This document shows, piece by piece, positions 14,498-38,152 of a stretch of 64,000 nt of DNA; position 1 is the first letter of the stretch, and each line of letters opens with the position of its first letter. The notes beneath the pieces were generated by a model, which was given only the letters and a program-made list of their open reading frames with translations, was not told the origin of the DNA and made no database searches. Source of the DNA: Arthrobacter sp. SLBN-112 (lineage in GTDB: Bacteria; Actinomycetota; Actinomycetes; Actinomycetales; Micrococcaceae); NCBI RefSeq assembly GCF_030944625.1, contig NZ_JAUSXY010000001.1, forward strand, positions 1,178,001-1,242,000, given 5' to 3'. A program made the translations under genes and the position numbers.

Positions 14498-14518
14498 CGT
14501 TGAAGTCCTATCTGCGGG

Positions 14519-16670: not shown

Positions 16671-16694
16671 AGCCTTCTCCTCATCAGGTACGAA

Positions 16695-16706
16695 ATCGTA
16701 TACGAT
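16695..16706. promoter_or_regulatory. Palindromic operator ATCGTATACGAT before the hpa operon
   Basis: Perfect 12-bp palindrome placed between the -10 element and the TTG start of hpaG. GTATAC-centred palindromes are common targets of GntR/FCD regulators, and the operon encodes one. The pairing with that protein is inferred. Confidence 0.6.
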
Positions 16707-16707
16707 C

Positions 16708-16736
16708 ACTATCGCGCATGCTGCCGTATCCGTCAA
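16708..16736 (-). promoter_or_regulatory. Promoter of the homoprotocatechuate operon
   Basis: Minus-strand -35 TTGACG (16736-16731), exactly 17 bases, -10 GATAGT (16713-16708), followed at once by the palindromic operator. Drives hpaG-gntR-hpaE-mndD-hpaH-hpaI-gabD. Confidence 0.68.
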
Positions 16737-16844
16737 CCCCCGCAATATCGCTTATTTACGGGCTTCCGCGACGGTACTTGTCGGCTCGATCACATCGGGC
16801 GTACAGTGGAAACCAAGTCGTTCAGTTTCTAATATCGAATCTCC

Positions 16845-16861
16845 TGTTCTCATATAGAACA
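16845..16861. promoter_or_regulatory. Inverted repeat before the aromatic monooxygenase
   Basis: TGTTCT-N5-AGAACA, 42 bases upstream of the monooxygenase start. Unlike the GTATAC palindrome of the divergent operon, so the monooxygenase may answer to a different regulator. Confidence 0.4.
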
Positions 16862-16902
16862 CCCTGCGGAGATTATCATCCACAACGAAGTGAGGACATC
16901 CC

Positions 16903-19658: not shown

Positions 19659-19682
19659 GATCCGTATGGTTTCACGCGCGCG

Positions 19683-19704
19683 GGCCCGTTGGGAAAACGG
19701 GTCC
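19683..19704 (-). terminator. Hairpin after amylosucrase
   Basis: CCCGTT-GGGAA-AACGGG stem with flanking partial pairing, directly after the amylosucrase stop codon and before pheA. No U tract. It could separate the two transcripts. Confidence 0.4.
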
Positions 19705-19710
19705 GCGATG

Positions 19711-21624
19711 CTACGCCGGGGTGACGCGCAGCCAGAGGTATTGCCGGGGGAGGAGCGTGACGCCGTCGTGCAGGTTCAGGGCCGCCTCGGAGAGGAGGTC
19801 GACGGCGGCAGGAAAGTATCCGCCGAAGGTTTCCCCGGGCAGCGCCTGGGCGGAATCGCTGAAGTTGGCCAGCGCCAGGACGACGCTGCCGCCCTCCCCG
19901 TCGCCGGGCCGCTGGTACGCCAGCACGGAGCGGTTGTTCGTGGCGAAATCCACCAGCGTGGTTCCGGCCAGTTCCGGGGTGCCGGCGCGGACCTCGATCA
20001 TCCGCTTGATGCCTGCGTACACTGCCCCCTCGGGTGTGGCGGGGTCGTCCCGCCGGGCGTACTGTTGCGCCGGGTAGTGCGGGCGGTGCACCCAGCGGCT
20101 GTCATCGCCGTGGCCCGGTTCGGCGGCGTAGCCGTAGTCGTTGAGCTGCCCCACCTCATCGCCCAGGTACAGCAGCGGGACGCCGCCGGTGCTGAACGGC
20201 ACCGAGTGGGCCAGGAGGATCCGTTCCACCGCCTCGGCCGGGTCAACCTCCATGCCGCACAGTGAAGCCGTCGTCCCTGAAATCCGGCAGTCCCCGGTCT
20301 TGGGGTTGTCCTGGAACGGGACCCCGCGGGCGAAGCTGCCGGGGAACCGGTTGACGTAAAAGGAATTCAGGAAGCGGCGGTGGTCGAACCCGTTGATGCC
20401 CAGCTCGGCCGCGTCCTCGTCGGCGAAGGTCCAGCCGATGTCGTCGTGGCTGCGGACATAGTTCACCCAGGCGGTGCCGTCCGGGATGTTGTGCCTGCGT
20501 TCCAGGGCCTGGGCCAGGAGCGAGACGTCGCGGGTGGCCAGGGACTCCCAGATCAGCGCCATCTGCAGCGGGTTGTAGGAAAGCTGGCACTCTTTGGGGT
20601 CGATGTACAGCGCCACCTCATCCGGGTGCACGATCGCCTCGGACTTGAACAGCAGCGACGGCGCCGCCAGCCGGCACACGGCGTTGAAGGCCCGCAGCAG
20701 CGTGTGAGCCTGGGGCAGGTTCTCGCACGGGGTGCCCAGCTGCTTCCAGATGAACGCCACGGCGTCCATGCGCAGGATGTCCACGCCCTGGTTGGCCAGG
20801 AACAGCATCTCGCCCGCCATGGCCCGGAACACCTCGGGATTGGAGTAGTTCAGGTCCCACTGATAGGTGTGGAAGGTGGCCCAAACCCAGCGGCCGTCCT
20901 CCATTTGGATGAAGGATCCGGAGTGGTTCTCGGGGAAAATCTCGCGGACGTTCGCCTCGAACGCGTCCGGCATGGTCCGGTCCGGGAAGATCCAGTAGTA
21001 GTCGCTGTACTCGGGATCCCCCGCGGCCGCTTTGCGCGCCCACTCGTGCTCGTCGGAGGTGTGGTTGAAGATGAAGTCCACCACCAGGCTGATCCCGTTG
21101 GCCTTGAGCTCGGCGGCGAGGCCGCGCAGTTGCTCCATGGTGCCCAGTACCGGGTTGACCTGGCGGTAACTGGAGACCGCGTAACCGCCGTCCGAGTGCG
21201 GCTCTGGTGCCAGGAACAGGGGCATGAGGTGCAGGTAGGTGAGGCCCAGCTCCTTGAAGTACGGGATGCGGGCCCGCACCCCTTCGAGGCTCTCGGCATA
21301 GCGGTCCACGTAGCACACCCCGCCGAGCATCCGGTTGGACTGGAACCAGTCCGGCGTCTGTTCGCGGCTGGCATCCAGGGCCTTCAGTTCCGGGGAGCGC
21401 TCCTGCCAGAACCGTGCGCATTGGAGTACTAGGTCAGTGAGTTGATTCAACCAGTCCTGGCGTGCACCGTACAAGGAATGGAACAGGCTCCGGAGGGTGG
21501 GAAAGTGCTCGTCGAGGCGCCGGTCAAAGTCCGCGTCCCGGCGCAGGCCGTGTTCGTGTTCCCGTGACAACGCTGACAGCACGTGCCGGCGCGCTTCTTC
21601 GTTCTCGTTGACGTACTCCTGCAT
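19711..21624 (-). CDS. Amylosucrase (GH13)
   Basis: 637 residues, the length of Neisseria polysaccharea amylosucrase. Catalytic groups are seen at Asp287 ('DILRMDAVAFIWKQ'), Glu329 ('LFKSEAIVHPDEV') and Asp394 ('RSHDDIGWTF'), one position later than in the Neisseria enzyme. 'VVDFIFNHTSDEHEWA' is the subfamily signature. The enzyme uses sucrose to elongate alpha-1,4-glucan and releases fructose, without nucleotide sugars. No signal peptide is seen, so probably intracellular. Sucrose phosphorylase or trehalose synthase are close relatives, but the length and the long helical N-terminus favour amylosucrase. Monocistronic. Confidence 0.88.
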   Translation of the reverse strand: MQEYVNENEEARRHVLSALSREHEHGLRRDADFDRRLDEHFPTLRSLFHSLYGARQDWLNQLTDLVLQCARFWQERSPELKALDASREQTPDWFQSNRMLGGVCYVDRYAESLEGVRARIPYFKELGLTYLHLMPLFLAPEPHSDGGYAVSSYRQVNPVLGTMEQLRGLAAELKANGISLVVDFIFNHTSDEHEWARKAAAGDPEYSDYYWIFPDRTMPDAFEANVREIFPENHSGSFIQMEDGRWVWATFHTYQWDLNYSNPEVFRAMAGEMLFLANQGVDILRMDAVAFIWKQLGTPCENLPQAHTLLRAFNAVCRLAAPSLLFKSEAIVHPDEVALYIDPKECQLSYNPLQMALIWESLATRDVSLLAQALERRHNIPDGTAWVNYVRSHDDIGWTFADEDAAELGINGFDHRRFLNSFYVNRFPGSFARGVPFQDNPKTGDCRISGTTASLCGMEVDPAEAVERILLAHSVPFSTGGVPLLYLGDEVGQLNDYGYAAEPGHGDDSRWVHRPHYPAQQYARRDDPATPEGAVYAGIKRMIEVRAGTPELAGTTLVDFATNNRSVLAYQRPGDGEGGSVVLALANFSDSAQALPGETFGGYFPAAVDLLSEAALNLHDGVTLLPRQYLWLRVTPA

Positions 21625-22424: not shown

Positions 22425-23611
22425 CCCCGATTTTTCATGATGGCCGGTGATGCCCGTTGAGTTGGGGCTGGTGGGTGGCTGGCGGTTGTTTTCTGTTTTC
22501 GGGCAGTGTGGTGTGGCCCGTTGGTTCGTCTTGGGGTTGGCGCCGGTTCCACTGCCGGTTCATGGGGCTGTTCGTCGGGACGGGATGAGGGTCTGTTCAG
22601 CCCGAGGACAGCAACTGTTTGAGGTCACTGGTGTTGGCCAGGAGCAGTTTCAGGAGGTCCTTTTCTGGGGCTGATTCGGGGAGCAGGAGCCGGTGGCGGC
22701 GAGCTCGGGTGATGATTTTCCCGGCGGTCGCGAAGAGCCGGTAGCGCCAGCGTTTGATGTCCCAGGCTTTGGAGCGGTGGCCGTCCGGGAGGGCTGCGAG
22801 CTGGAGCCAGGAGACCAGGTTGAAGGCGAGGGCTGCGATGTTTGCCCAGGCCTGGTTCACGGCGAAATCAAAGAACGGGAGCTTGCCCAGGCCGGTGTTT
22901 TTCAGGGTATTGATCCTGTTCTCGCACCGGCCGCGGGCGCGGTGCCGGGCGTCCAGGAACGGTCCGTGCCAGCGTGGTGAGTTGGTCAGCATCGCGGTGA
23001 TCCGGTGCCCGTCGGTATCGAGCAGGGTCGGCTGGGCTCCGGGGTGCAGCGGCTCGGCCCGCAGGAACAGTTTGGTGCCCGGCGGGTAGTCGGTGAACGG
23101 GATGACGTCGGTGGCGTTGATAACCCACGCATCGGTGCGGTCGTTGCCGGTCTGGTCAGGGCCGGCTGCCAGTACTCCTTGTCGTTTATCCAGTCGATCA
23201 TGTGGGCCCTGCCGAACGGGAGGGTGTAGCTGGTGGAGAACTGCACGCCGAGGCCGTGCAGGTGCCAGAGGAATTTCCGTGAGGCCCCGGCACTGTCGGT
23301 GCGGACCAGGATCTTCTCCCCGGTCAGGGCTCCGGTGTCGTTGTGGAGGCTTTCGGGCAGTTGGGCTGCGGCGGTGTGGAAGACCCGGAAGTGGTCCTCG
23401 GCGCTGTTCGCTCCGGCGTTGCCGGGACGCAGCACGGCGGCGAGGATTTCCCCGGAACCCTTGCCGGCGCCGTAGTCACAGGAGGCGATGAAGGGGGCGA
23501 ATCCGTAGCCGCCTTTGTAGGTTCCGGCGATGTTTTCCTTGTCCGAGTGCGAGGTCACGAGGGTCGCGTCGATAGCCGTTTGGAAACGAGCGGCTAAATC
23601 TCCTGCTGTAG
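22425..23611 (-). mobile_element. Truncated IS1380-family insertion sequence
   Basis: Holds the C-terminal two thirds or so of an IS1380-type transposase plus its downstream end. The right boundary is placed tentatively at CCCCGATTTTTCATGA (22425-22440), which resembles an IS1380-type terminus. The left end is missing: the transposase reading starts abruptly at the livF 3' end, so the 5' part and one inverted repeat are lost. No target duplication can be recognised. The livF stop codon itself lies in IS-derived sequence. Confidence 0.7.
22597..23611 (-). pseudogene. IS1380-type transposase, 5'-truncated and frameshifted
   Basis: The first readable part is 'AGDLAARFQTAIDATLVTSH' then 'SDKENIAGTYKGGYGFAPF' and 'ILVRTDSAGASRKFLWHL', the DDE catalytic region of IS1380 transposases. 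At about 23150-23158 the frame slips after 'EYWQPALT'; the neighbouring frame continues 'TGNDRTDAWVINATDVIPFT' and ends with 'ENRINTLKNTGLGKLPFFDF' and 'LVSWLQLAAL', the conserved C-terminal part. With the N-terminus gone and the frame broken, it cannot make active transposase. Confidence 0.8.
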
Positions 23612-24349
23612 GTCTGTGGGCGCAGAGCGGGCGGAAACTCCGTGTGAGGTGGTTCCGTTCTTGCCGCCGAATGCGATGGATTCCAAACGTCGGAGGCCGT
23701 CACTGTCACTGGCCTTCACTTGTTCACGGCTTCTTCCGATAGAGATGAGCATCGCGTCGTCAGCGAGGTTTGCGACTCTGCTTGCGCTCTGTTCCACGAG
23801 GACCACGGCGAGGTTGGGATTCAGCAGCGAGCGGATCTGGGCGTAGATTTCATCCACGATAACCGGAGCCAGACCCAGCCCGGGTTCATCGAGCAGGAGG
23901 ATTTTTGGATCCCGCATGAAAGTACGAGCCAGGGCCACCATTTGGCGTTGCCCGCCTGACAGCGCTCCAACGTCGGTGGTAGTGCGCGATTGAAGCATTG
24001 GAAAGAGATCCAGCGTCATGTCGAGATTCCTGATCGCGGCCTTGGTCTGGCCGACCATCATGTTTTCGCGTACTGTCATGGCCGAAAAGAGGCTATGGGC
24101 CTCCGGCACGACGCCAACCCCTACTTCCCTGACCCGGCGATGTGTCGGCCAAGACGATACGTCTGTGCCGTACATAGTGACCGTCCCACGGGTCTTGATA
24201 AGACCAAGGGTGGCTTTGACGGTACTGGACTTACCGGCACCGTTGGTTCCGACAAGTGCAAGAACCTGCCCTGGAACCACGGTGAGAGAGACGTCAAAGA
24301 GGGCTTGTGTGCGGCCGTACCAGGCTTCGATATGGTCAAGCGAGAGCAT
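23594..24349 (-). CDS. livF: Branched-chain-type ABC transporter ATPase LivF
   Basis: 251-residue ATPase: Walker A 'LVGTNGAGKSST', signature 'LSGGQRQMVAL', Walker B 'ILLLDEPGLGLAP'. ATG 24349 (GGAG seven bases upstream) overlaps the livG stop by 14 bases. The last 15 or so residues ('TSHGVSARSAPTDLQQEI') extend beyond the usual LivF end and run into the IS1380 remnant, so the original 3' end was probably replaced by the insertion. The core ATPase is complete. Last gene of livKHMGF; substrate likely amide or nitrile related because of the shared operator (inference). Confidence 0.88.
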   Translation of the reverse strand: MLSLDHIEAWYGRTQALFDVSLTVVPGQVLALVGTNGAGKSSTVKATLGLIKTRGTVTMYGTDVSSWPTHRRVREVGVGVVPEAHSLFSAMTVRENMMVGQTKAAIRNLDMTLDLFPMLQSRTTTDVGALSGGQRQMVALARTFMRDPKILLLDEPGLGLAPVIVDEIYAQIRSLLNPNLAVVLVEQSASRVANLADDAMLISIGRSREQVKASDSDGLRRLESIAFGGKNGTTSHGVSARSAPTDLQQEI

Positions 24350-25112
24350 GTGATTCTCCGAAATAGGCAAGGCGAACGTCTGGACGGTCAAGCACTTGGT
24401 CGGTTGGACCCTCGGCAAGGACAGTTCCGGCTACCAGTGCGATGCATCGGTCGCATGATTTCCGGACGATGTTGACGTCATGTTCTACGAGGATCAGGAG
24501 GCATCCGACTTTGGAGGGCAGGTCACGAAGGATAGCGGCAAGCTGTTCCCGGCTTCCTGAGTCAAGGCCGGCGGCTGGTTCATCGAGGAATATCACCCGG
24601 GGTTCGGCCATGAGCACACGCCCGATTTCGACCAACCGGCGGGTAGCCGTGGACAGGGATGAGACTTGGGCGTCGGCGTAGTCAACGAGCTTGAGCAGGT
24701 CGAGGGTTGCGTAGGCCTGACCCAACCAGGCGCGTTCGGACTTACGATGGCGGGCAGACCCGAAGAGTTGCCGAAGCGCGCCGGCGCCGCTGAACCGCTG
24801 GCGTCCCAGTAGCAGATTGGTGATGACGGTTTCATCTTCCAGCAGCTGAGCAGTTTGAAAGCTTCTCACCACCCCGGCTTTTGCATGAAGTTCCGGTGAA
24901 AGCGCGGTGATGTCCTCCTGGTCGAGAAGGATGGTGCCTTCTGTTGGACGAACAAACCCGGACAGTGCGTTAAGCAGGGTGCTCTTACCTGCCCCGTTTG
25001 GACCGATGAGGCCTATTGTTCCTGGCCCCTTGAGGTGGAGGTTCACATTATGCAGAGCGACTAATCCGCCAAAACTCACGCCCACATCCTTGATTTCCAA
25101 CTGAATGGTCAT
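24336..25112 (-). CDS. livG: Branched-chain-type ABC transporter ATPase LivG
   Basis: 258 residues: Walker A 'LIGPNGAGKSTLLNALSG', Walker B 'RVIFLDEPAAGLDSG', switch His in 'LILVEHDVNIV'. The signature loop reads 'LSTATRRLVEIGR' in place of the common LSGGQ, a degenerate form I believe also occurs in other LivG-type proteins. ATG 25112 overlaps the livM stop as ATGA. Pairs with LivF as the motor of the importer. Confidence 0.9.
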   Translation of the reverse strand: MTIQLEIKDVGVSFGGLVALHNVNLHLKGPGTIGLIGPNGAGKSTLLNALSGFVRPTEGTILLDQEDITALSPELHAKAGVVRSFQTAQLLEDETVITNLLLGRQRFSGAGALRQLFGSARHRKSERAWLGQAYATLDLLKLVDYADAQVSSLSTATRRLVEIGRVLMAEPRVIFLDEPAAGLDSGSREQLAAILRDLPSKVGCLLILVEHDVNIVRKSCDRCIALVAGTVLAEGPTDQVLDRPDVRLAYFGESHALA

Positions 25113-26170
25113 GGAGTGACCTTTCCGGTGTTCTTGCTTTGGCTGAATATATTCTTGAGCTGCACAGCTCCACCGGGCAGCAAGTAGATGAGCGCTACAA
25201 GCAGTGCGCCGGACAACAGGACGTAGAGGCGGTCTTGGCCAAGGGCGCTGAACAGCGGCGGGACCAGGGACACGTAGGCCGCGCCAATCCATGCGCCCAG
25301 GGTGGAACCTGAGCCGCCAAGGATGACCCCCACCAGGATGTAAACCGACGGAAAAAGTCCGAAGGTGGCCGGCGTCACCGATCCGACCAGATGGGCAACC
25401 AGGAAACCTGACACTCCCGCGCAGACACCGGCTACGACGAAGGCGGCCAATTTGGTGCGCGAGAGACTGACCCCGACGGAACGGGCTGCGAATTGCGACT
25501 CGCGCACTGCCGCCATGTTCCTGCCCAACTGGGTATGAGGTATTCGCGCCAGAACGACGGTGGCCAGGCCAACCGAGACAGCGCACAAACCGTAAAGGAA
25601 GTAGGGGCTGTCAGTCTCCAGCCCCGGAATGTAGAAGGAGGCGACCGGAAGGCCTTGAAGGCCGCCGGTAACCGCCCGTTGCTCACGGATCCACCATTGG
25701 AACAGCTCGCCCACGGCGAGCGTCACCAAGGCAAGACGCAGTCCGCTGACCCGCAGCGCTGGGATTCCAACCAGAAGCGCCGCAGCCACCGAAACACCTA
25801 TGACCAGGACGATTTCATAGAGGCCTGTGAGGCCGAGCACCGTTGCTCCTACAGCCGCCGTGTAGGCGCCGATTCCAACGAACGTCGCCTGCGACAACGA
25901 AAAGATCCCTGTGATCCCGAATAAAACCCGGGCACCCATGACGGCAATGGTGTACGCCATCCATGACGACGCCAGATAAAGCCAGTAAGGATCCAGAAAG
26001 AAGGGTAGAAGCGCCACGACGATAGTGAAGAGTGCCACGGTGATGATGGTTCTCCTGCGGCGCCCGGCCAGCAGGTGAGTGATTCTTTCTTTTGCCCCTG
26101 GTGAAAGGGGCAGCGCCCAGCCGTTACCCGTGGTGGTGGCGGAATCTGCGTGTATTTTTGCCTGAGTCAT
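25109..26170 (-). CDS. livM: Branched-chain-type ABC transporter permease LivM
   Basis: 353 residues with about ten hydrophobic segments after a 40-residue polar N-terminus; 'GITGIFSLSQATFVGIGAYT' and 'GGSGSTLGAWIGAAYVSLVP' are characteristic LivM segments, the latter being the ATPase-contact loop. ATGA overlaps with livH before it and livG after it show one polycistronic message. Confidence 0.92.
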   Translation of the reverse strand: MTQAKIHADSATTTGNGWALPLSPGAKERITHLLAGRRRRTIITVALFTIVVALLPFFLDPYWLYLASSWMAYTIAVMGARVLFGITGIFSLSQATFVGIGAYTAAVGATVLGLTGLYEIVLVIGVSVAAALLVGIPALRVSGLRLALVTLAVGELFQWWIREQRAVTGGLQGLPVASFYIPGLETDSPYFLYGLCAVSVGLATVVLARIPHTQLGRNMAAVRESQFAARSVGVSLSRTKLAAFVVAGVCAGVSGFLVAHLVGSVTPATFGLFPSVYILVGVILGGSGSTLGAWIGAAYVSLVPPLFSALGQDRLYVLLSGALLVALIYLLPGGAVQLKNIFSQSKNTGKVTP

Positions 26171-27051
26171 ACGCGTACGACTCCTTTCTCGGACAGGAAA
26201 CGCTTGGGCAGCACGGCGAGGAGCAGGATAACGACGATGAACACCGCGGGTGTGCCGTAGTTGGTGCCAATGGCGTAAGTCGCCAGGCCTTCGAAGAGGG
26301 CCAGGCCAAAGGCAGCCGTCAGGGGAGCTACGAAACGGTCGAGCCCGCCAATAATTCCTGCGATGACAGACTTAATGAGGAAGGGCGTCATGTAATAGGC
26401 GTCCAAAGACAGCCGACTGGCCACAACGATTCCGACGACGCCCGCGGTCAGCCCGGCGAACGCCCACGTAGCTCCTCGGACGCGGCTGACGTTCAGGCCC
26501 ATGCTTTTGGCCAGCGCCGGGTCGGTGGCAACAGCCCGCATTGCCAGACCGAACTGTGTCTTTGAGAGAAACCATGCGAAGCCGGCGAGTAGCACGAGGA
26601 CGCCGAGGGTCACCACGACCTGATTGAGGTTCAGGAACAGGTCGCCTATTTCCACCGGGACATCAGTGCCCAAGGGAACAAATGAACGGGTGGTCGTGCC
26701 AAAGAGTGCTTCGGCGACAGCTGTCAGCAGGAGCAAGATGCCCAGAGTCACCACGAGATCCAGTCCGTCGCGGCCCGCTTTGCGACTGATCGGTTCAAGG
26801 ATGAACCGATCAGTGGCAAAGGAGATCACAGCCGCGGCGGCTAAGCCTGCAAGGATTCCTACCCAAAGGGGCTGAGTGCGGGCAGCCAAGGTAAAGGTGA
26901 TGAAGGCTGCCATCATTCCCAGAGCTCCGTGAGCGAAGTTCACTGCCTTGCTGACGCGGTAAACGATGAGCATGCCAAACAGAAGCAGAGCGTACAGCGC
27001 CCCCGTGGCGAGCGAGCTTAGGAGTATTTGTAATAGTCCGGACAACTGCAC
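26167..27051 (-). CDS. livH: Branched-chain-type ABC transporter permease LivH
   Basis: 294 residues, mostly transmembrane; 'LIVYRVSKAVNFAHGALGMM' is the hallmark LivH N-terminal motif and 'AIVGGLDR'-like 'GIIGGLDRFVAPLTAAFGLA' the conserved cytoplasmic loop. GTG 27051 is chosen because it follows the livK stop by eight bases; longer in-frame starts overlap livK. Confidence 0.9.
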   Translation of the reverse strand: MQLSGLLQILLSSLATGALYALLLFGMLIVYRVSKAVNFAHGALGMMAAFITFTLAARTQPLWVGILAGLAAAAVISFATDRFILEPISRKAGRDGLDLVVTLGILLLLTAVAEALFGTTTRSFVPLGTDVPVEIGDLFLNLNQVVVTLGVLVLLAGFAWFLSKTQFGLAMRAVATDPALAKSMGLNVSRVRGATWAFAGLTAGVVGIVVASRLSLDAYYMTPFLIKSVIAGIIGGLDRFVAPLTAAFGLALFEGLATYAIGTNYGTPAVFIVVILLLAVLPKRFLSEKGVVRV

Positions 27052-27059: not shown

Positions 27060-28301
27060 CTACTTGCCTGTCACTGTTTGGAACGGCGCGACCTGCACGG
27101 CCTTGCCGTCTTCGATGCGGGCTACACCGACGGCATTGGTTCCCTGCCTGGAATTGGGACCAAAGGTGACCGGCGGGATCAGGCCGGTTTTGAAGTCCTT
27201 CATGCTTTCGAGGGAAAAGGCAAGGCAATCCCGGGTCAGAGCCGGCGCGTCTTTCAAGGCTTTGAGGGTGACAAGTGCCTGGGTGTAGCCGACGGCGTTC
27301 CACATCGTGGGGGCTGTTCCTGTGGTTTTGGTGTACTCAGAGACAAACTCCCGGACCAGCGGATCATCGCTGGCGAACGGCGCGACCTTCGTAGGTACGG
27401 TCATTCCTTCCACCACGTTCCCGTACTCCGACAGAAAGGATTCATCGGTGATGTCAGACTGGGCAAGTAGTTTCGGCTTGTAGCCGATCTGGTTCATGGC
27501 CGCGATGACCTGGCCAACGACGACCGGGCCCGCCACCAGCGCGACCAGCTCGGAGTTCTTGTTCTTCAGTGCCTGTGCAACCGCCGAAAAGTCGGTCATG
27601 GTCGGTTCGACTGTTTGCGTTGTCCCAATCGTCAGCCCGCTGCCGTCAAGGGCCTTCTTTATGCCGCTCAGTGCGTCGTCGCCGACGTCCCCCACCTGCT
27701 GCACGAAGGAGATGCTCGCGGGCTTCTGCTCCTTCATCAGCCAGCTCAGCGCGACGTTGTATTCGTCAATGAAATTTGGCCAGATCATGTAAACGTCCGG
27801 GTTTTGCATGACACCGACCTGGTTGGAAGGAGCATATGGGCCCACGGATGGTATGTGCTTTTCTTTGATGAAGGGCAGCACACCAACGAAGTTTGGTGTG
27901 CCTATGCCGCCTGCAAACGCGAATACGCCTTCGCTCGTCTCAAGACGCCGCGCTGCCTGCTGCGCTACTGCAGCGTCATACTGATCATCCTCGGCGACGA
28001 CTTCCACCTGACGGCCCTGCACGCCTCCTGCCGCATTAACTTTGTCGAGTGCGAACTGGAAGCCCTTCAGTGCGCCGTTGCCCGGGGCCGCAAGCGGCCC
28101 GGTCAATGGGGTGAACATTCCAAGCTTGATCTTGCTGTCCGTGATGCCCTGGGCTACACCGTTCGTGTCGCAGCTGGTGCGGGCGGTACGGGCAGCCGAA
28201 GCCTGCCCTTCGGAGGTGTCGCCGCGAGTGGCGCACCCGGTTGCGACCAGTGCGGTGGCAACCGTGATGGCCCCCAGGGTCAGTCGGCTCGAAATTTTCA
28301 T
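27060..28301 (-). CDS. livK: Substrate-binding lipoprotein of the Liv-type importer
   Basis: 413-residue periplasmic-binding-protein type I. The N-terminus has a signal sequence ending in a lipobox-like 'LVATGC', so it is anchored outside the membrane. The mature part shows 'KLGMFTPLTGPLAAPGNGAL' and 'VEVVAEDDQYDAAVAQQAARRL', typical of the Liv/amide/urea-binding group. ATG 28301 has AGGAG upstream. A near copy (one mismatch) of the nitrile hydratase operator lies 66 bases upstream at 28367-28378, suggesting the transported compound is an amide, nitrile or derived acid rather than leucine (inference). Confidence 0.9.
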   Translation of the reverse strand: MKISSRLTLGAITVATALVATGCATRGDTSEGQASAARTARTSCDTNGVAQGITDSKIKLGMFTPLTGPLAAPGNGALKGFQFALDKVNAAGGVQGRQVEVVAEDDQYDAAVAQQAARRLETSEGVFAFAGGIGTPNFVGVLPFIKEKHIPSVGPYAPSNQVGVMQNPDVYMIWPNFIDEYNVALSWLMKEQKPASISFVQQVGDVGDDALSGIKKALDGSGLTIGTTQTVEPTMTDFSAVAQALKNKNSELVALVAGPVVVGQVIAAMNQIGYKPKLLAQSDITDESFLSEYGNVVEGMTVPTKVAPFASDDPLVREFVSEYTKTTGTAPTMWNAVGYTQALVTLKALKDAPALTRDCLAFSLESMKDFKTGLIPPVTFGPNSRQGTNAVGVARIEDGKAVQVAPFQTVTGK

Positions 28302-28740
28302 GCTTGCTCCTGATGTGCGATGCGAAAGATTAGGCCTTGAAACGGCCGGGAAATTCTGCTTGGTACTTCCAAATGGAAGGGTTGGTGCAACCACTGTCAC
28401 ACACGGGGTGGCGTTTCGCCATAGCAAGGGCGGGATTCGGGCAAATATGGCAGAAGAGGTGAGGCAGTGGCGCGCCGGCGGCAGTGTCTCGTGGTGCACC
28501 CCGGAGCCGCGGCCGGCTGACGTCAGGAAGGTGCACGGCGGTCACTTCGCAGAGGTAGAAACGCGGCCGTTCCTCCACGCTTGCGGCAGATCCGGGCGCC
28601 CGCTATCCCGCTCTGGGTAGCTGCGAGGACCAGAACGAATACCGCCTGCCTTTGAAAACAAGTACGTCCCGCTGTCTGCAGATATGGCCAGGCTTCCTGG
28701 CTCGAGGGGAGTAGAAGCCCGGGTCAGAGTCGGATTGGAT
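28302..28740. other. Intergenic region holding the liv promoter
   Basis: Between the nhlF stop and livK start, both minus strand. Apart from the palindrome at 28367-28378 and a GTGACA -35-like hexamer upstream of it, nothing recognisable is present; no gene is supported. Confidence 0.45.
28367..28378. promoter_or_regulatory. TTCCAAATGGAA operator before livK
   Basis: Eleven of twelve bases match the perfect palindrome TTCCATATGGAA found at 33417 and 34621 in the nitrile hydratase cluster. It lies 66 bases before the livK start. It is probably bound by the same MarR-type regulator. Confidence 0.6.
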
Positions 28741-29853
28741 TCAGGCTCCGGGATCACTCCCGTGAGTCGCCGAAGCCGCCGTCCGGAGAGCACTGCTGCC
28801 GGACTGGCTGCGCCAGATGAGGGCTGCCACCAGCCAGGTGAGCACAAAGATTCCAGCAATGATGTAGCCCATGAGCTCGAATTGCTCGGCCAGTGCGGCT
28901 ACTGGCTCCAGCCACGCCCAGCCTAAGAGCTGGGAGGCCAAGCCGCTCGCGTAAACGGTCGCGACAACGAGCGCGATCACGACGGTCATGGTGGTGGTGG
29001 CGATGTTAAAGAACAGAGTACGCACGGGGTCGCGGTGGGACCAGGAATACAGCTTGGTCATGATGAGGCTGTCAGCGGTGTCAAAGGTGCTCATGCCGGC
29101 TGCGAACAGCAGGGGCAGGCTGAGTACAGCCAGGAGGGAAACGCTTCCGGCGTCGGTGGCCGATGCAGTCATGGCTAGGAGGGCCACTTCGCTTGCAGTT
29201 TCCAGCCCCAGGCCCATCAGCAGGCCGACCGGGTAGAGGTGCCATGAGGATGTGATCATTGACCGGCCGCGGGAACCAAGGAGCCGGGAGACCAGGGCCC
29301 GGGATGCGAGCTGCTGGTCGATGCGCTTGCCATCATGTCTGCCTTGCTTCGACTCCCGCCACAGAGCACGAAGCCCGCGCAGGACTGAACCGTTAAGGAC
29401 TGCGACGAGGACCAGGAAGAAGAAAGCAACCGCCGCTGCCACCTTTCCTCCGGCGTCGGTGACGGTGGCCAGGGCCCCTTCGTCAATTGCTCCGGCACCC
29501 CACCAGATCAACAGGGCCAGGATGACGACGACGGAGGAATGGCCCATGGCGAAGAAAAAGCCCACCCCGACGGGGCGGCGTCCCCGGTACATCATGGCCC
29601 GGGTGGTGTCGTCGATGACCGCGATGTGATCAGCATCGAACGCGTGCCGCATGCCCAGAACGTAGGCAAGAGCACCGGCGCCGGCCAGACCGCCGGCGCC
29701 GGCAAGTTCTCCTTGCCCTGCCAGATAGAGGACGACACCTCCGAGGTGAAGTGCGACGATAACTCCTATGATCGCCGCGATACGGCGCTTTTCCCCTCGG
29801 CTCCATGCCATCGTCTGGCCACGTCCCGCGGCCGGTGAGATCATCGTTGTCAT
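28741..29853 (-). CDS. nhlF: Cobalt transporter, NiCoT family (NhlF)
   Basis: 370-residue integral membrane permease. The family signature 'LGMRHAFDADHIAVIDD' (HX4DH metal site in helix 2) is intact, as are 'FFFAMGHSSVVV' and 'GLLMGLGLETASEVALL'. It imports Co2+ for the cobalt-type nitrile hydratase encoded upstream, as NhlF does in Rhodococcus. ATG 29853 is chosen because it overlaps the stop of a 66-residue ORF as ATGA; a TTG at 29892 is the alternative. Confidence 0.9.
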   Translation of the reverse strand: MTTMISPAAGRGQTMAWSRGEKRRIAAIIGVIVALHLGGVVLYLAGQGELAGAGGLAGAGALAYVLGMRHAFDADHIAVIDDTTRAMMYRGRRPVGVGFFFAMGHSSVVVILALLIWWGAGAIDEGALATVTDAGGKVAAAVAFFFLVLVAVLNGSVLRGLRALWRESKQGRHDGKRIDQQLASRALVSRLLGSRGRSMITSSWHLYPVGLLMGLGLETASEVALLAMTASATDAGSVSLLAVLSLPLLFAAGMSTFDTADSLIMTKLYSWSHRDPVRTLFFNIATTTMTVVIALVVATVYASGLASQLLGWAWLEPVAALAEQFELMGYIIAGIFVLTWLVAALIWRSQSGSSALRTAASATHGSDPGA

Positions 29854-30050
29854 CGGCGTGGCCCGTGGGTCTCGGGACTGCCGGCGGAACAAGAACTTTC
29901 ATCATGGTTCGGTGTCTGCGCCGGCCAGGTGCCTCGGCCGCGGACAACATTGATTTGGTTGAGGTTGGCCCCCGCCCCCGATGTGGAGGGTTCCGGCCGG
30001 TGGGTCTGGAGGCCCTGCCGGGAGGGAGCAGCGGGGATCCACTGAGTCAC
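29850..30050 (-). CDS. Small ORF translationally coupled to nhlF
   Basis: 66 residues from GTG 30050, with AAAGGA six bases upstream, ending in an ATGA overlap with nhlF. The product is polar and Pro/Gly/Arg-rich ('PAAPSRQGLQTHRPEPST') with one Cys near the end and no recognised family. The overlap and ribosome binding site argue it is translated. It may only serve to couple nhlF translation, or encode a small accessory protein. No cobalamin riboswitch motif was recognised here. Confidence 0.5.
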   Translation of the reverse strand: MTQWIPAAPSRQGLQTHRPEPSTSGAGANLNQINVVRGRGTWPAQTPNHDESSCSAGSPETHGPRR

Positions 30051-30190
30051 TGGGTGTCCTTTCTCGGACGGGAATGGCTGACGGCGACGCACAGCGAGTG
30101 CGCGTGAGGCCGCGCAGTGCGGCCCTGCCTTGTAGCAGGATCCGGTGCGGGGCCACGCGCAGGGCGAGGCCCAGCAGCAATGCAGGTCGA

Positions 30191-30577
30191 TTAGTGGACG
30201 TGGCCGTGGTCGTCGTCACCGTGTGGATGTTTGTGCGTGTCATCCCGTGGCGTGTCGAGGATCGCCCGGGTGCGGCGGTCGACCTCTTCGAGATCGAGGC
30301 CGCCGCGTTCGGCTAGAAGTGCCTCGAGTGCTTCGACCCAACGAGCGTAATAGTGCTCCGGTTTGTTCTTGTCTTCAGCCTTGTCGATGGCTCTGATCAG
30401 GCTGGACTGGAAGTCGCTCCAGGAGAAGTTGGCGTTCTCGTAGTAGGCGACGCCCAGTGCGAAGCTACGCAGCTCCCAGGGAAGCCGGAAGGCTTCCTCT
30501 CCGTCCCGGGGTGTCCGGGCGCTGCTCACGTGAATGTCCTGGATGTTTTCTTCGGACAGGGTTTGGCACTGTGACAT
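30191..30577 (-). CDS. nhlE: Nitrile hydratase accessory protein (NhlE/P14K-like) with His-rich tail
   Basis: 128 residues related to the N-terminal half of nitrile hydratase beta subunits ('PWELRSFALGVAYYENANF', 'HYYARWVEALEALLAERG'). Such proteins carry alpha subunit and cobalt during self-subunit-swapping maturation of Co-type enzymes. The C-terminus 'HKHPHGDDDHGHVH' has five His in fourteen residues and looks like a metal store or docking tail. It starts two bases after the alpha-subunit stop codon. Confidence 0.87.
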   Translation of the reverse strand: MSQCQTLSEENIQDIHVSSARTPRDGEEAFRLPWELRSFALGVAYYENANFSWSDFQSSLIRAIDKAEDKNKPEHYYARWVEALEALLAERGGLDLEEVDRRTRAILDTPRDDTHKHPHGDDDHGHVH

Positions 30578-30579
30578 GA

Positions 30580-31224
30580 TCAGGCACCCACTTTGGCCGG
30601 TGCGACCACGCCTACACCAAGCATCGAGTCCCGGGTTACCAGTTCGGCGAGTTCCTCAGCGGACAGGCCTTCGGTCCCTGTCGGCCGTTGGGGGAGCACC
30701 CAGTAGCGCAGTTCGGAGCTGGAATCCCATACCCGGATTTCCTTCTCCGGAGCAAGGTCCAGGCCGAATTCTTTCAGGACCGACCTGGGGTCACGGACGA
30801 CGCGGCTTCGGTAGGCCTCCTTCTTGTACCAGTTGGGCGGGAGGCCGAGAACTGGCCACGGGTAGCAGGAGCACAGGGTGCAGACAATCACGTTGTGGAC
30901 CTCATCGGTGTTTTCGACCGCGAGCATGTCCTCGCCCTGCAGGCCGCTGACGCCCATTTCGGCGCAGGCTGCTGTCGCGTCTTCAAGAAGCCGGGCCTTG
31001 AAGTCGGGCTCGGTCCACGCCCTGGCCACCACCTTGGCTCCGATTTGGGGGCCCACCTGGTGTTCGTAGATGTTCGAGATGCGTTCAACTGCTTCTTCGG
31101 AAACGACACCGCGTTCAATGAGGATTGCTTCCATTGCTTTGACTCTTGCGGTCATGTACTCGTCAAACTCTGCTGTGGCAGCGGGGACGACCGGGCCGCT
31201 GAAGGCATGGATAAAGTCAGTCAC
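30580..31224 (-). CDS. nhlA: Nitrile hydratase alpha subunit, cobalt type
   Basis: 214 residues. The active-site claw is 'VCTLCSC' with Cys115, Cys118 and Cys120. Thr at the third position marks the Co(III) class (Fe enzymes have Ser), and two of the Cys are oxidised in the mature enzyme. It hydrates nitriles to amides. The N-terminal '[20 protein letters not shown]' is typical. It lies between beta and the accessory gene, the order beta-alpha-E known for the low-molecular-mass Rhodococcus enzyme. Confidence 0.96.
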
Positions 31225-31233
31225 TTTTGTCTC

Positions 31234-31932
31234 CTAGGTGTTTGAGGTGGTGCTGGCGAGACTGAGGTAAGGCTCCCAGAGGTCACAGATGATCCTCGCC
31301 TTGGGGTCACCGATTGACTCCCCGAACAGTTCTTCGGCCGAGAACTGGACGGAATAGACGTAGTCCGGCGCCTCGCCGCCGCCGTGGGCGTTGGTATCCG
31401 GAAAGACGAAACTGCCGTGCGAAGAGATGATGGTTCCCACCCGGCCGGTCGCGTACCCCACCTTGCGCGTATGGCCTACCGGAACGGATCCGGAGACCCG
31501 GACCAGGTCCCCGATCTTGAAACCAGCTGGGCGGTCCACATCACGGCGCGTGGGTGCGCCGGCAAAGGCCAGCGCGCCGATGGTGTCGGCGAGCTCGTGG
31601 TTGACGGTTGGAGGCAGCGGAAGCTCAGGGGACTTCCGATACTCGGCCGTCCGGCGGTCCAGCTCCGCTGTGAACGTGGAGTCGTCACGTGCAAGGTATT
31701 CCTCGAACGAGTGCATCCAATGCGCATAGTACGGGTGGGATAGATACTCGACAGGATCCATCTTCTCCATCGAATGCCGGAATTCGTCGAGGTTGAAGTA
31801 GCCGGCGATGGCACACTGCGCGAAGAAGGAAAAGGCAGCCTTTTCCCACTCCGCATGCCAGACTGGTTCGTTCTCTTCAACAAGGATGGGCCCGAAACCG
31901 TCGGCGCCTCCTACATCATGGATACCCCTCAT
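31234..31932 (-). CDS. nhlB: Nitrile hydratase beta subunit
   Basis: 232 residues starting 'MRGIHDVGGADGFGPI', the invariant N-terminus of beta subunits; the C-terminal SH3-like barrel ('FKIGDLVRVSG', 'DYVYSVQFSAEELFG') packs on the metal site. ATG overlaps the amidase stop as ATGA; alpha follows nine bases later. Confidence 0.96.
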   Translation of the reverse strand: MRGIHDVGGADGFGPILVEENEPVWHAEWEKAAFSFFAQCAIAGYFNLDEFRHSMEKMDPVEYLSHPYYAHWMHSFEEYLARDDSTFTAELDRRTAEYRKSPELPLPPTVNHELADTIGALAFAGAPTRRDVDRPAGFKIGDLVRVSGSVPVGHTRKVGYATGRVGTIISSHGSFVFPDTNAHGGGEAPDYVYSVQFSAEELFGESIGDPKARIICDLWEPYLSLASTTSNT

Positions 31933-33374
31933 AACACTGCCCTTTCGAGTTGACGTGCCTTTTGTGCCATCGGCGGGTGTTTCGTGTGAAAGTCAGTCAC
32001 GGACTGGAATGCATGCCCGGCCTGAAGCAACAGCTGCTCGGAGAAGTCGCGGCCGATGAACTGGACACCCAGTGGAGTCCCGCGAGGTGAAAAGCCCGCC
32101 GGCAGCGTGATGGTGGGGCTGCCGGTCATATTGAAGGGCGCAGTAGGTGTCAGCAGGGCAGCGAAGAGTTCCATGTCTTCGCCCAGGGTGCTGAGCTTTT
32201 CCAGCGTGGGGGAAGCAAAGCCGACTCCGGGCATCAGGACCAGGTCAACCTTCTGGAAGACCCGACGGAACTCCCCAACGAATGCCATCCGCTGCTTGAC
32301 CAGCTTCTGGTAGCCCACGGCCATGCTCGCCCTGCCCGCTTCAATAAAGTCGCCGAGAGCCTCTCCGTATTCGGCGGCTCGTGCCGGAAAAGTGTCCTCA
32401 TGTGCAAGGGCAGTTTCAACCGCGAGGAGCGGACCAAAAGCCTCCGAGATCGCGGCCAGGTCCGGTAGACGGAGCTCGACAACGGGCCAGCCAAGGCTTT
32501 CAAGGAGAACTACAGTATCAACGAGCATCTGGCGGGTGGTCTCGTCGAAGGACGCCATCGCCGTCCAGTCAACCCCTACACGGGGCGGAGCTGCCAGCGA
32601 AAGATTGGCTGCATATGACGGAACGGGTTCCAGGGACGCGGTGGGATCGTTCGGGTCCGCCCCGGCCATGACCTCCAGCAGGGCGGCGCAGTCGCGCGCG
32701 CTCCGGGCCATGGGCCCTACGTGGTCAAGGCTCGCCGCCAATTCAACGACACCGTAGCGGCTGACCCGGCCCCACGTGGGCTTGAGCCCGGTAACCCCAT
32801 TCATGCTGGAGGGGAGCCGGATGGAACCGCCAGTGTCCGAGCCGGTGGCACCAAAACACAGCCCGGCTGCTACGGCAACTCCGGAGCCGCTGGACGATAC
32901 CCCGGCCCACGTTTCCGCGTCCCAGGGGTTGACCGGCGCGGCTACTTGGGGATGGTGTTCGGTGTAGGCACCCTCGGTCATCTTCAGCTTGCCGACCATG
33001 ACTACCCTCTTGACTGCACCCGCGTCACGGAAACGTGTCACGACCGTTGCGTCATAGGGCGGGGTGAAGTCATTGAAAATGGGCATGCCGGCCGTTGTTA
33101 CGGCATCGGTGGTGTAGCAGAGGTCCTTGATGCCGAGTGGAATTCCATGCAAGGGGCCCTTGTAATTGCCTCGGCTGATCTCTTTGTCCGCTTTGGCTGC
33201 CGCAGCGCGGGCAACGTCGCCCATCACCGTGACATAGCTTCCCAAAACCTGGTCGTGATCGGCGATTCGCTCCAGAGTTGCGTCTAGAACTTCCGATGCG
33301 CTGATCTGGCGGGACCGGATCAGCTCGGCCACTTCTGTTAGTTCAAGGAAACAGATTTCCTCATGATTAACCAA
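31929..33374 (-). CDS. Amidase of the amidase-signature family
   Basis: 481 residues. The Ser-cisSer-Lys triad is visible: Lys83 in 'GIPLGIKDL', cis-Ser around 160 in 'GVSSSGSGVAVAAG', nucleophile Ser184 in 'GSDTGGSIRLP'. It hydrolyses the amide made by nitrile hydratase to acid and ammonia. TTG 33374 is chosen because AGGAGG lies eight bases upstream. First gene of the amidase-beta-alpha-accessory operon; a perfect TTCCATATGGAA sits 43 bases upstream. Confidence 0.93.
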   Translation of the reverse strand: MVNHEEICFLELTEVAELIRSRQISASEVLDATLERIADHDQVLGSYVTVMGDVARAAAAKADKEISRGNYKGPLHGIPLGIKDLCYTTDAVTTAGMPIFNDFTPPYDATVVTRFRDAGAVKRVVMVGKLKMTEGAYTEHHPQVAAPVNPWDAETWAGVSSSGSGVAVAAGLCFGATGSDTGGSIRLPSSMNGVTGLKPTWGRVSRYGVVELAASLDHVGPMARSARDCAALLEVMAGADPNDPTASLEPVPSYAANLSLAAPPRVGVDWTAMASFDETTRQMLVDTVVLLESLGWPVVELRLPDLAAISEAFGPLLAVETALAHEDTFPARAAEYGEALGDFIEAGRASMAVGYQKLVKQRMAFVGEFRRVFQKVDLVLMPGVGFASPTLEKLSTLGEDMELFAALLTPTAPFNMTGSPTITLPAGFSPRGTPLGVQFIGRDFSEQLLLQAGHAFQSVTDFHTKHPPMAQKARQLERAVL

Positions 33375-33416
33375 GACTTTTTCCTCCTGTACGTCGGGCG
33401 CGCGGCGCCCAACTCC

Positions 33417-33428
33417 TTCCATATGGAA
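33417..33428. promoter_or_regulatory. TTCCATATGGAA operator before the amidase-nitrile hydratase operon
   Basis: Perfect 12-bp palindrome. On the minus strand a TTGACG -35 hexamer lies at 33454-33449, so the palindrome covers the expected -10/start region. An identical copy is at 34621-34632. Confidence 0.75.
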
Positions 33429-33512
33429 AGGTATGGGGAAGATGTTTCCGTCAAGTGCACCAAAAGTAAAGGGTTTGTTAACGCGAATCCGAAAAAGACC
33501 GGGGTCGGGACC

Positions 33513-34598
33513 CTAGACGTCGATGACCTCGAAGGAGAGGCCGGCAGTGACAGCCAGGTGAGCCCGGTACTCCCGGGCAACTACTGATGGACCCTGGACC
33601 CGCGGCACCCCTCCGGGCGTACCCAGGTTGGCTACGTCCAAGGCGCCGGTGTCGTCCAGCTGCCCCAGAAGATGCATTCCATCGTAGGCGTGTTCGCCCC
33701 AGCTGGTGAGGACGGGGGAGGAGTCACCGAACATGAACCGGTAGCGATCGTTCAGGTCAGCGCGGCGGTCGGTGCCCACGGCGTGGAACGAGTGCATGGA
33801 TGCATACAGGTTGCCGCTGCGGTCCCCGTCGAGCGCATAAAGGAGATTCTCGTCCAGGGATCCCGGGGAGAAAATAACGAGTCGCTTTTCCAGACCACAG
33901 GCGCGGGCTGCGCGAAGAGCTGTTATCAGATCACGCCCCGGCATATTGACTATCAGGCCCTTGGCGCCGCTGGCAGCAACCTCTTGCAGTAAGGCCCGGA
34001 TGCTCGACTTCACTGCGCCGAGGGGTATCAGCCGGTCCAAGACGACCCTGCCGCCGCTCGCCTCGATCTGACGGCGTTCAAAGTCCCGGGCCATTCGAGG
34101 CCAGATGTACTCGGTACCCAATATTGCCCATTCGCTGACACTGCGTGCCGCCATGATCCATCGAAGGCTGTCCGCCGATTGGTTGGGCGTTTCCCCTACA
34201 CAATAGAAGCCCGGCAGGCGGGAGGCGCCCTCATGTCCCGCGGCGAAAATATAGGGCACGGCAGCGCCAAGGGACTGCTCCACGTGTTCGAGCGTCTGGC
34301 TCGTATGCAGGCCAATGAAAGCCTCCACCGACTTGCTCATTGCGAGGTCCCGGACCTGGGCGGCGACTTGCGCCGGGGGAGCCCCGGAATCTACGAGAAT
34401 CAGTTCCAATTTGCGTGCGCGTCCGGACCGAGCGGCATTGAGCTCATGGGCTGCCAAGGAGACTGCGTCAAGAACGGTGGGTCCGGTAACTCCCAATACC
34501 CCCGATAACGGAAAGACCAGACCCACCCGGAACGCGCCCGGGTTCGGCCCGTGCAGCATCGCCTCAAGTGAGTCGAGCATCGGTATAGTTGCTGGCAT
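33513..34598 (-). CDS. AmiC/NhhC-like ligand-sensing protein
   Basis: 361-residue periplasmic-binding-protein-type-I fold without any signal peptide, hence cytoplasmic ('FRVGLVFPLSGVLGVTGPTV', 'HTSQTLEHVEQSLGAAVPYI', 'SADSLRWIMAARSVSEWAIL'). AmiC in Pseudomonas senses amides and controls amidase; NhhC does so for Rhodococcus nitrile hydratase. It is divergent from the MarR gene, sharing the operator at 34621. Likely amide sensor and positive factor for the cluster. Start at ATG 34598 has only a weak AAAAG site. Confidence 0.82.
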   Translation of the reverse strand: MPATIPMLDSLEAMLHGPNPGAFRVGLVFPLSGVLGVTGPTVLDAVSLAAHELNAARSGRARKLELILVDSGAPPAQVAAQVRDLAMSKSVEAFIGLHTSQTLEHVEQSLGAAVPYIFAAGHEGASRLPGFYCVGETPNQSADSLRWIMAARSVSEWAILGTEYIWPRMARDFERRQIEASGGRVVLDRLIPLGAVKSSIRALLQEVAASGAKGLIVNMPGRDLITALRAARACGLEKRLVIFSPGSLDENLLYALDGDRSGNLYASMHSFHAVGTDRRADLNDRYRFMFGDSSPVLTSWGEHAYDGMHLLGQLDDTGALDVANLGTPGGVPRVQGPSVVAREYRAHLAVTAGLSFEVIDV

Positions 34599-34620
34599 CT
34601 TTTCAATGTAGATTTGCTGG

Positions 34621-34632
34621 TTCCATATGGAA
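34621..34632. promoter_or_regulatory. TTCCATATGGAA operator between AmiC-like and MarR genes
   Basis: Perfect 12-bp palindrome in the 46-base divergent gap, immediately before the probable GTG start of the MarR gene. It implies autoregulation and control of the AmiC-like gene. Confidence 0.75.
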
Positions 34633-34644: not shown

Positions 34645-35037
34645 GTGGAAGACCTTCAGCTGATCGACAATGCCACCGCCGAACTGGCCGAATTCCTCAC
34701 AGCTGCCCGCCGCACCGCTCAAGAGTTGAACAGAATTCTTGGTGAAGACAATCTGCGGGAAGATTTGTGGCGGATCCTGATGTGCTTGTCACAGGCTGAC
34801 GGTATGTCAATGGGTGAAATATCGGAATCCCAGGTTATTCCGCACGCCACCACGACACGGCTCATTGACGAAATGACCGACAACGGCCTCGTCTTTCGTC
34901 GACCGTCGCCGGATGACGGAAGAAAGGCGATCGTTCACCTCTCCCAGAGGGGAAAAGAAAGGCTGCTGCGTGCCAACGCGCTGCTCTCGGCGCGGGTAGG
35001 AAAATTGCCCGAGGCGCTGGTTTCGTCCCGCGCCTGA
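34645..35037 (+). CDS. MarR-family regulator of the nitrile hydratase cluster
   Basis: 130 residues (136 if ATG 34627 is used, but that start lies within the operator). MarR winged helix: 'LREDLWRILMCLSQADGMSM', recognition helix 'HATTTRLIDEMTDNGLV', wing 'FRRPSPDDGRKAIVHLS'. GTG 34645 has AAAGGGG seven bases upstream. The arrangement of MarR-like plus AmiC-like genes next to nitrile hydratase matches nhhD-nhhC of Rhodococcus rhodochrous J1. Three copies of the same palindrome outline its probable regulon. Confidence 0.85.
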   Translation: MEDLQLIDNATAELAEFLTAARRTAQELNRILGEDNLREDLWRILMCLSQADGMSMGEISESQVIPHATTTRLIDEMTDNGLVFRRPSPDDGRKAIVHLSQRGKERLLRANALLSARVGKLPEALVSSRA

Positions 35038-35181: not shown

Positions 35182-35880
35182 TTAGGCCAACTCGTCCGCG
35201 GTAGCCCCGGACCGGAGGTCGTCAATCTCCAGTGAATCGATTCTGTCGAAGTGGCTGTCCATGGCGGCCATGGCGGCGGCTGGATCCTTGGCCTTGACCG
35301 CTTCAAGGATGGCACGGTGAAGCACCCTCATTTCGTCCAGATCGTTGGCGAGCCGAAGCATTCTCGAACGGCGGGAACTCACAGAGTCCGCGATGAGATC
35401 ACCGACCGCGCTGGAGAAGAAGATCAACGAAGGATCACCGGATGCCTGGAAAATTGCGCGGTGAAAATCGAGATCAGCCGCGTAGAGGTCATCAGGCGTT
35501 GTGGACTTTTCCATTCGCATCACAGCATCTTCTGCATGCGCTACAGGAATGGGCTTGAAGTCCTCCGCCGCCATCTTGGCCGCCTGCCGTTCGAGCGCGA
35601 CCCGAACCGGCTGGAAAGCCGACGCGGAGGACAGGGCCGAGGAATGCAGGCCTATCTTCAGGGCCGCTGCCACATCCTGCGGTTTCACAGTGCGGGTGTA
35701 TGTGCCTGCCCCGCCTCTCCTCTCGAGGGCGCCCATGGCTTCGAGCATCCTGAGCCGGTGACGCAGAGCGGTGCGCGACGTCCCCCACTGGACCGCAAGA
35801 TCTCGCTCTGACGGAATTCGCTCGTCAGGGCCAGCCTCCTCCACCAGGTTCAGCAGTTTGACCAGAAGATTGTCTTCCAT
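35182..35880 (-). CDS. GntR/FadR-type (FCD) regulator 1
   Basis: 232 residues. N-terminal winged helix ('ERIPSERDLAVQWGTSRTAL', 'RLRMLEAMGALERR'), C-terminal FCD domain ('ADLDFHRAIFQASGDPSLIF', 'LHRAILEAVKAKDPAAAMAAM'). ATG 35880 has GGGAGGG six bases upstream. It is divergent from the SDR gene, whose promoter holds a perfect TTGGTA-N-TACCAA palindrome; related sites occur before three other units of the island, so this protein is the best candidate regulator for them (inference). Confidence 0.88.
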   Translation of the reverse strand: MEDNLLVKLLNLVEEAGPDERIPSERDLAVQWGTSRTALRHRLRMLEAMGALERRGGAGTYTRTVKPQDVAAALKIGLHSSALSSASAFQPVRVALERQAAKMAAEDFKPIPVAHAEDAVMRMEKSTTPDDLYAADLDFHRAIFQASGDPSLIFFSSAVGDLIADSVSSRRSRMLRLANDLDEMRVLHRAILEAVKAKDPAAAMAAMDSHFDRIDSLEIDDLRSGATADELA

Positions 35881-35973: not shown

Positions 35974-36003
35974 TTGACAGCACCACCTTGGTAGTACCAA
36001 AAT
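35974..36003 (+). promoter_or_regulatory. SDR promoter with TTGGTA-N-TACCAA operator
   Basis: -35 TTGACA 35974-35979, 18-base spacer, -10 CAAAAT 35998-36003. The perfect palindrome TTGGTAGTACCAA (35988-36000) fills the spacer, so a bound repressor would block polymerase. The same layout recurs at 38090-38119. Confidence 0.7.
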
Positions 36004-37030: not shown

Positions 37031-37045
37031 AGGATCCAGGATCCT
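37031..37045. promoter_or_regulatory. GGATCC-N-GGATCC operator before GntR regulator 2
   Basis: Perfect 15-bp palindrome AGGATCCAGGATCCT, 40 bases before the start of the GntR gene. A matching palindrome, GGGATCCTGGATCCC, occurs at 46916-46930 and an 11/12 version at 40503-40515. Confidence 0.6.
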
Positions 37046-37820: not shown

Positions 37821-38152
37821 GGCCTCTGCCGCACGCATCCGTGCCCGGGGAATCCGGCTGCCACCTGCCGGTTAAGCACGGGAGAACCTCCAGGTTTCGT
37901 AACGCCTCAGACGAGCTAACGGCTTGTTGGATCTCGTCGAGCAAATGGCGAGCAGGAACCGGCAACGAAAAGCTACTCGCCGTACATGTCCGTCGCCCTG
38001 CCGGCAGCCGCCCCGGCAGCGCTGATCAAATCCGGGCCGGGCGCCTCGGCGCCCACGTCAAGCAATCATGTGCATTTTCAGCCGTACCATTGACAGGATG
38101 CGCTTGGTAGCACCATGATGAATTAAGGCAACACCAACGAAGGGATTTTATT
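37821..38152. other. Intergenic region before the lipoyl-E1 operon
   Basis: No coding sequence recognised. A weak hairpin near 37842-37880 (CCGTGC/GCACGG with inner CCGG/CCGG) may end the GntR transcript. The lipoyl operon promoter lies at 38090-38119. Confidence 0.4.
38090..38119 (+). promoter_or_regulatory. Promoter and imperfect TTGGTA-type operator of the lipoyl-E1 operon
   Basis: -35 TTGACA 38090-38095, 18-base spacer, -10 CATGAT 38114-38119. TTGGTAGCACCAT (38104-38116) lies in the spacer; its left half is perfect and its right half has two mismatches to TACCAA. Same geometry as the SDR promoter. Confidence 0.62.

Follow-up and report, generated by a model that had tools for sequence, protein, structure and literature searches.

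A rare palindrome shared by nitrile hydratase genes and a Liv-type importer gene in Arthrobacter, and a possible fused operator at livK

In the genome of the soil actinobacterium Arthrobacter sp. SLBN-112, a 12-bp palindrome, TTCCATATGGAA, stands before genes of a nitrile hydratase (NHase) cluster and before livK, one of a group of liv-like ATP-binding cassette (ABC) importer genes. The stretch analysed, 64,000 nucleotides long and here called the window, spans positions 1178001-1242000; the genome is a single contig of 4,386,623 bases (4.39 Mb). At the livK promoter, a TTCCATATGGAA-type site, for which a MarR-family regulator is the proposed binder, overlaps by 6 bp with a TTGGTANTACCAA-type site, for which a GntR-FCD regulator is proposed, and together they form the 19-bp element TTGGTACTTCCAAATGGAA (28360-28378). 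The two motifs require different bases at two positions; each motif loses one of them, and neither has an unforced mismatch. Because both conflicts are forced and each motif yields once, TTGGTACTTCCAAATGGAA looks like a fused operator. Such an overlap was rare in random sequence of 60% GC, arising in 2 of 200,000 trials for a MarR site given the GntR site and in 3 of 200,000 for the reverse.

The link between liv and the NHase genes is probably real, liv seems to be tied to a second regulon as well, and the letters of the element suggest that uptake by the importer would answer to two regulators at once. We put forward, as a tentative possibility, that in this element a site for MarR has merged with a GntR site of FadR type into one operator, at the cost of one base each. 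A nitrile- or amide-linked ABC importer would then be the meeting point of two regulons on one acquired island, with uptake only when both amide and downstream acid signals are present.

Sites and rarity of the two motifs

Two copies of TTCCATATGGAA are exact, one at 34621-34632 between the AmiC-like and MarR genes and one at 33417-33428 before the amidase-NHase genes. The third, TTCCAAATGGAA at 28367-28378, has one mismatch and forms the right half of the fused element. An earlier note on this DNA had reported two perfect sites and one with a single mismatch, and both their coordinates and their letters proved exact. At up to two mismatches the window holds these three sites only, against a shuffle expectation of 0.76, and 3 of 100 shuffles reached three. 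Genome-wide, the exact palindrome occurs twice, both times at this cluster, and at up to one mismatch there are six sites versus two for a reversed-pattern control. Three of the four one-mismatch copies lie outside the window, within open frames 646, 676 and 751 codons long, and all three sites that are not inside those long frames precede genes of one cluster. The earlier note had expected few other genomic sites at this stringency and had named a motif common genome-wide as the refuting case; other sites are indeed few. At up to two mismatches the genome holds 46 TTCCATATGGAA sites versus 40 for the control, which is little excess. Of the 40 two-mismatch sites, which were checked for coding overlap, two (L234, L252), if not more, may lie between genes.

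Gene starts were assigned from the sequence. The palindrome lies 66-77 nt upstream of the livK ATG (28301, minus strand), 43-54 nt upstream of the probable TTG start of the amidase gene (33374, minus strand) and 23-34 nt upstream of the ATG of the AmiC-like gene (34598, minus strand). The MarR gene starts at GTG 34645 (plus strand) or at ATG 34627, which falls within the palindrome. An ATG is present inside the palindrome itself at both the 33417 and the 34621 sites; the downstream starts are taken as more likely there because GAGGAAAA or AAAGGGG precedes them. Read on the coding strand, the motif runs in the same direction at all three sites, toward amiC, amidase and livK, and has a common CC flank (CCYTTCCATWTGGAA, CC[CT]TTCCAT[AT]TGGAA). 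This extended form was derived from the same three sites, so that what is informative is only its gap to the rest of the 46 genome sites found at up to two mismatches, the best of which has two mismatches to it.

The second motif, TTGGTANTACCAA, occurs in the genome as three exact copies and a single one-mismatch copy, all four of them in the island. The inexact copy, TTGGTACTTCCAA, is the one at livK (28360-28372). Of the exact copies, TTGGTAGTACCAA (35988-36000) has GntR-FCD gene 1 on one side and the gene of a short-chain dehydrogenase on the other, and TTGGTACTACCAA (48911-48923) and TTGGTAATACCAA (49136-49148) share one intergenic region, which is flanked by the genes of a major facilitator superfamily (MFS) symporter and of a hydroxyacid dehydrogenase. 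For FadR-subfamily GntR regulators, PMC4494728 and PMC2230225 give a consensus with the boxes TKGT/ACMA, and the TGGT-N3-ACCA core of TTGGTANTACCAA matches them. All three exact copies satisfy TKGT-N3-ACMA. The livK copy differs from FadR-subfamily operators in having TCCA for ACCA and in being fused with another palindrome. A further core, TTGGTAGCACCA at 38104-38115, stands directly downstream of TTGACA and before a lipoyl-domain/E1/E2 gene group. The regulon of the core TTGGTANNACCA seems to join the short-chain dehydrogenase, the lipoyl/E1/E2 gene group, the MFS symporter and the hydroxyacid dehydrogenase (35988, 38104, 48911 and 49136).

TTGGTANTACCAA was picked from an inverted-repeat list together with GGATCCNGGATCC and then tested on the genome; these two were the only members of the list treated in this way. 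GGATCCNGGATCC has two exact genome copies, at 37032-37044 next to GntR-FCD gene 2 and at 46917 in front of a gene for an amidohydrolase. At the latter place it is present in three overlapping copies (46903-46929), of which two have one mismatch. Allowing one mismatch raises the genome count to 47 places, versus 3 for the control.

A proposed mechanism and its rivals

From the sequences, rarity and positions of the sites, which were established directly, we infer the binder, the repression, its effectors, the regulatory logic and the transported compound. The best overall explanation, which we judge a little short of probable, would combine a MarR operator at three promoters, relief by amide through the AmiC-like protein, and fusion with a GntR-FCD operator at livK. 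TTCCATATGGAA would be the operator of the MarR-family repressor encoded at 34645-35037, which would act at three places: the divergent promoters of the MarR and AmiC-like genes, the region before the genes for the amidase, NHase and cobalt transporter, and livK. By analogy with the nhl/nhh and AmiC systems, amide bound by the AmiC-like protein would lift repression. At livK, the TTCCATATGGAA-type site would be fused with an operator recognised by the GntR-FCD regulator encoded nearby. This element would not be occupied by both proteins at once, and either one, when bound, would block transcription; the importer would be expressed only with both released, one by amide and the other, probably, in response to a carboxylic or hydroxy acid.

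Several results weigh against this explanation. At up to one mismatch, TTGGTANTACCAA is no commoner than its reversed control (4 versus 3), and its core TTGGTANNACCA has six genome places, four of them in the island, versus four control matches; because these counts are similar, only exactness and clustering favour the motif. The livK copy TTGGTACTTCCAA does not fit TKGT-N3-ACMA, its AC box being broken, and the GntR-like site there is possibly weak or a relic. A search for a MarR ortholog close enough for footprinting found none; among 34 other intergenic regions that were footprinted, the best match to TTCCATATGGAA has 3 mismatches, and the distant AmiC/MarR pairs (at most 77) lack it, with a best match of 4 mismatches. 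Scans for promoters around the sites gave no sigma-70 match. In a phylum sample of 20 other NHase regions, several of which were ended by contig ends, none has a match to livK, livH, livM or livF, and none of 10 neighbourhoods of liv relatives has a match to the amidase, NHase, AmiC or MarR of this cluster. The association of liv with NHase was seen in this genome only.

Control of liv by the MarR protein alone, with the overlapping GntR-like match accidental or a relic, would agree with the intact half-sites TTCCA and TGGAA at livK, where the mismatch is central, and with the broken AC box of the GntR match. We nevertheless regard it as unlikely, given that no other one-mismatch copy of TTGGTANTACCAA exists in the genome, that this one lies in the very island that holds all three exact copies, and that the overlap shows no unforced mismatch. 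The converse, with liv under the GntR-FCD regulator alone, an accidental TTCC match and an NHase link of neighbourhood only, draws on GntR-type sites at three other island promoter regions. It seems improbable to us, since the TTCC match retains both half-sites and the CC flank, and simple arithmetic, with three stray sites per 4.39 Mb, leads one to expect by chance about 0.0002 such sites per 300-bp promoter, or about 0.02 per 33-kb island.

A regulator other than the adjacent MarR protein could also bind TTCCATATGGAA, as might be suspected from the fact that a MarR ortholog with a conserved site was not found. We rate this slightly lower still: sites outside long open frames occur only at the cluster carrying the MarR gene, and the other regulators found in the island, two GntR-FCD proteins, each adjoin another candidate operator (TTGGTANTACCAA at 35988 for gene 1, GGATCCNGGATCC at 37032 for gene 2). 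The MarR protein, encoded divergently from the AmiC-like gene, is, on positional grounds, the best candidate binder. To this extent the proposal of the earlier note that MarR binds the palindrome is partly supported; its extension to liv needs qualifying, as a GntR-like motif overlaps the site there and control need not be by MarR alone. Lastly, the repeats could be products of chance. Repetition alone is weak evidence, because, when the window was simulated 300 times at first order, 64 of the runs contained some repeated 12-bp palindrome, and a second perfect 12-bp palindrome, GCCGGCGCCGGC, has three copies in the window itself; the small excess at two mismatches points the same way. The weight of the TTCCATATGGAA case rests on genome-wide rarity and position, and chance is very hard to reconcile with both exact genome copies and the sole one-mismatch copy outside a long open frame standing at promoters of one cluster.

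Genes of the cluster and the surrounding island

The genes of the proposed mechanism are as follows, on the minus strand unless stated. The MarR-family regulator (34645-35037, plus strand) matches Pfam MarR at 47.7 bits, over the cut-off. The AmiC-like ligand sensor (33513-34598), in which a signal peptide is not evident, matches Peripla_BP_6 at 157 bits and AmiC 1pea at E 5.7e-10. The product of the amidase gene (31929-33374, start assigned as above) matches amidase families. It is followed by the NHase beta (31234-31932; TIGR03888, 225 bits, cut-off 152) and alpha (30580-31224; TIGR01323, 307 bits, cut-off 250) subunit genes, both over their cut-offs. The product of 30191-30577 resembles annotated NHase accessory proteins of Rhodococcus plasmids and has no NCBIfam match at 1e-40, and a NiCoT-type nickel/cobalt transporter (28741-29892) scores 320 bits against TIGR00802, slightly below the cut-off of 333. 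The livK-like gene (27060-28301) encodes an extracellular binding lipoprotein (Peripla_BP_6, 222 bits; lipobox read from the sequence) and is accompanied by livH-, livM-, livG- and livF-like genes (23594-27051), which in NCBIfam match Liv and Urt families best, under the equivalog cut-offs of these. All five proteins fall under the cut-offs of the curated LivK/H/M/G/F models, and the superfamily alone is clear. GntR-FCD regulator 1, the proposed binder of TTGGTANTACCAA, is encoded at 35182-35880 (Pfam FCD and GntR).

A search found 570 AmiC relatives, and the loci of 80 of them (L100-L179) were examined. A divergent MarR gene adjoins 77 of the 80, and the MarR/AmiC-like pair can for this reason be regarded as a module. 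Within 300 bp upstream of amiC, GAGTATNCTC is present in 22 of the 80 loci and, by that pattern, never twice per locus. Because it never occurs more than once per locus it could not be called an operator, and it may equally be a -10 element. A crude search for palindromes common to the intergenic regions of four Rhodococcus plasmid loci found none.

As to the substrate, a leucine-type binding protein has a glutamate, E226 in LivJ, that holds the amino group of the ligand. In the alignment, LivK V261 stands opposite E213 of 4n0q, so that LivK lacks the leucine-type glutamate, and none of 16 aligned homologues has a glutamate in this column. Amides, nitrile-derived acids and hydroxy acids would be compatible, and the prediction of the earlier note that the importer carries an amide, nitrile or derived acid is a guess. 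At E 1e-30, a search of 393 other genomes of the class found liv relatives in 21, at no more than 32% identity, and livG matches occur in 3 of the 20 other NHase regions (L199, L209, L218). Among 58 other genomes of the relatives search, one has an NHase alpha match; its cluster layout differs and it has no site at up to 2 mismatches. LivK had zero matches at E 1e-40 among 100 other genus genomes sampled, and the best MarR match among 294 other family genomes sampled is 37% identical.

The GC fraction is 0.58-0.64 from about 22 to about 56 kb of the window and 0.65-0.69 in the flanks on both sides, and transposase remnants at 22.6-23.6 kb mark the left end of this low-GC island. The liv and NHase genes thus look like parts of one acquired island. 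In the left flank, positions 4000-21000 resemble an aromatic (homoprotocatechuate-type) degradation region on a Paenarthrobacter aurescens TC1 plasmid, with 83% identity over 67% of 17 kb, and Arthrobacter and Paenarthrobacter account for 15 of the 29 records among plasmid matches to this flank. An Rfam scan of 21500-52500 gave zero matches, no tRNA was found in the window, and a viral contig search gave zero relatives. With PADLOC, the MarR protein matched CARF proteins only weakly and the AmiC-like protein had no match.

Comparison with known systems

To our knowledge, NHase regulons consist mainly of the enzyme and cobalt uptake. No title or abstract opening found in a search of open-access literature describes an ABC importer under NHase control, a weak negative as most subscription journals lay outside its scope; nor did that search yield an amide importer and NHase under one palindrome, or a fused operator. 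If the proposed explanation is true, NHase regulons gain a dedicated importer, and the livK element offers a short, testable case of two merged operators that each give up as little as possible. Since NHases serve as industrial catalysts, the transported compound and its sensor would be of practical use.

Control of NHases by AmiC- and MarR-like proteins is already known: nhlC/nhlD and nhhC/nhhD control the cobalt NHases of Rhodococcus rhodochrous J1. The present cluster resembles this nhl/nhh type in that AmiC-like and MarR-like genes adjoin cobalt-type NHase genes, and Rhodococcus plasmids carry similar MarR, AmiC and NHase sets. Those pairs are distant (about 33% identity for AmiC), and none of the 7 plasmid loci scanned has a TTCCATATGGAA site at up to 1 mismatch. 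An amidase-linked amide importer is encoded by fmdCABDEF of Methylophilus methylotrophus (PMC10781810); it is linked to a formamidase, not to NHase, and the passage of PMC10781810 that describes it names neither a shared palindrome nor a MarR/AmiC pair. What sets the Arthrobacter cluster apart from nhl/nhh is the presence of the operator-like palindrome at a liv-type ABC importer as well.

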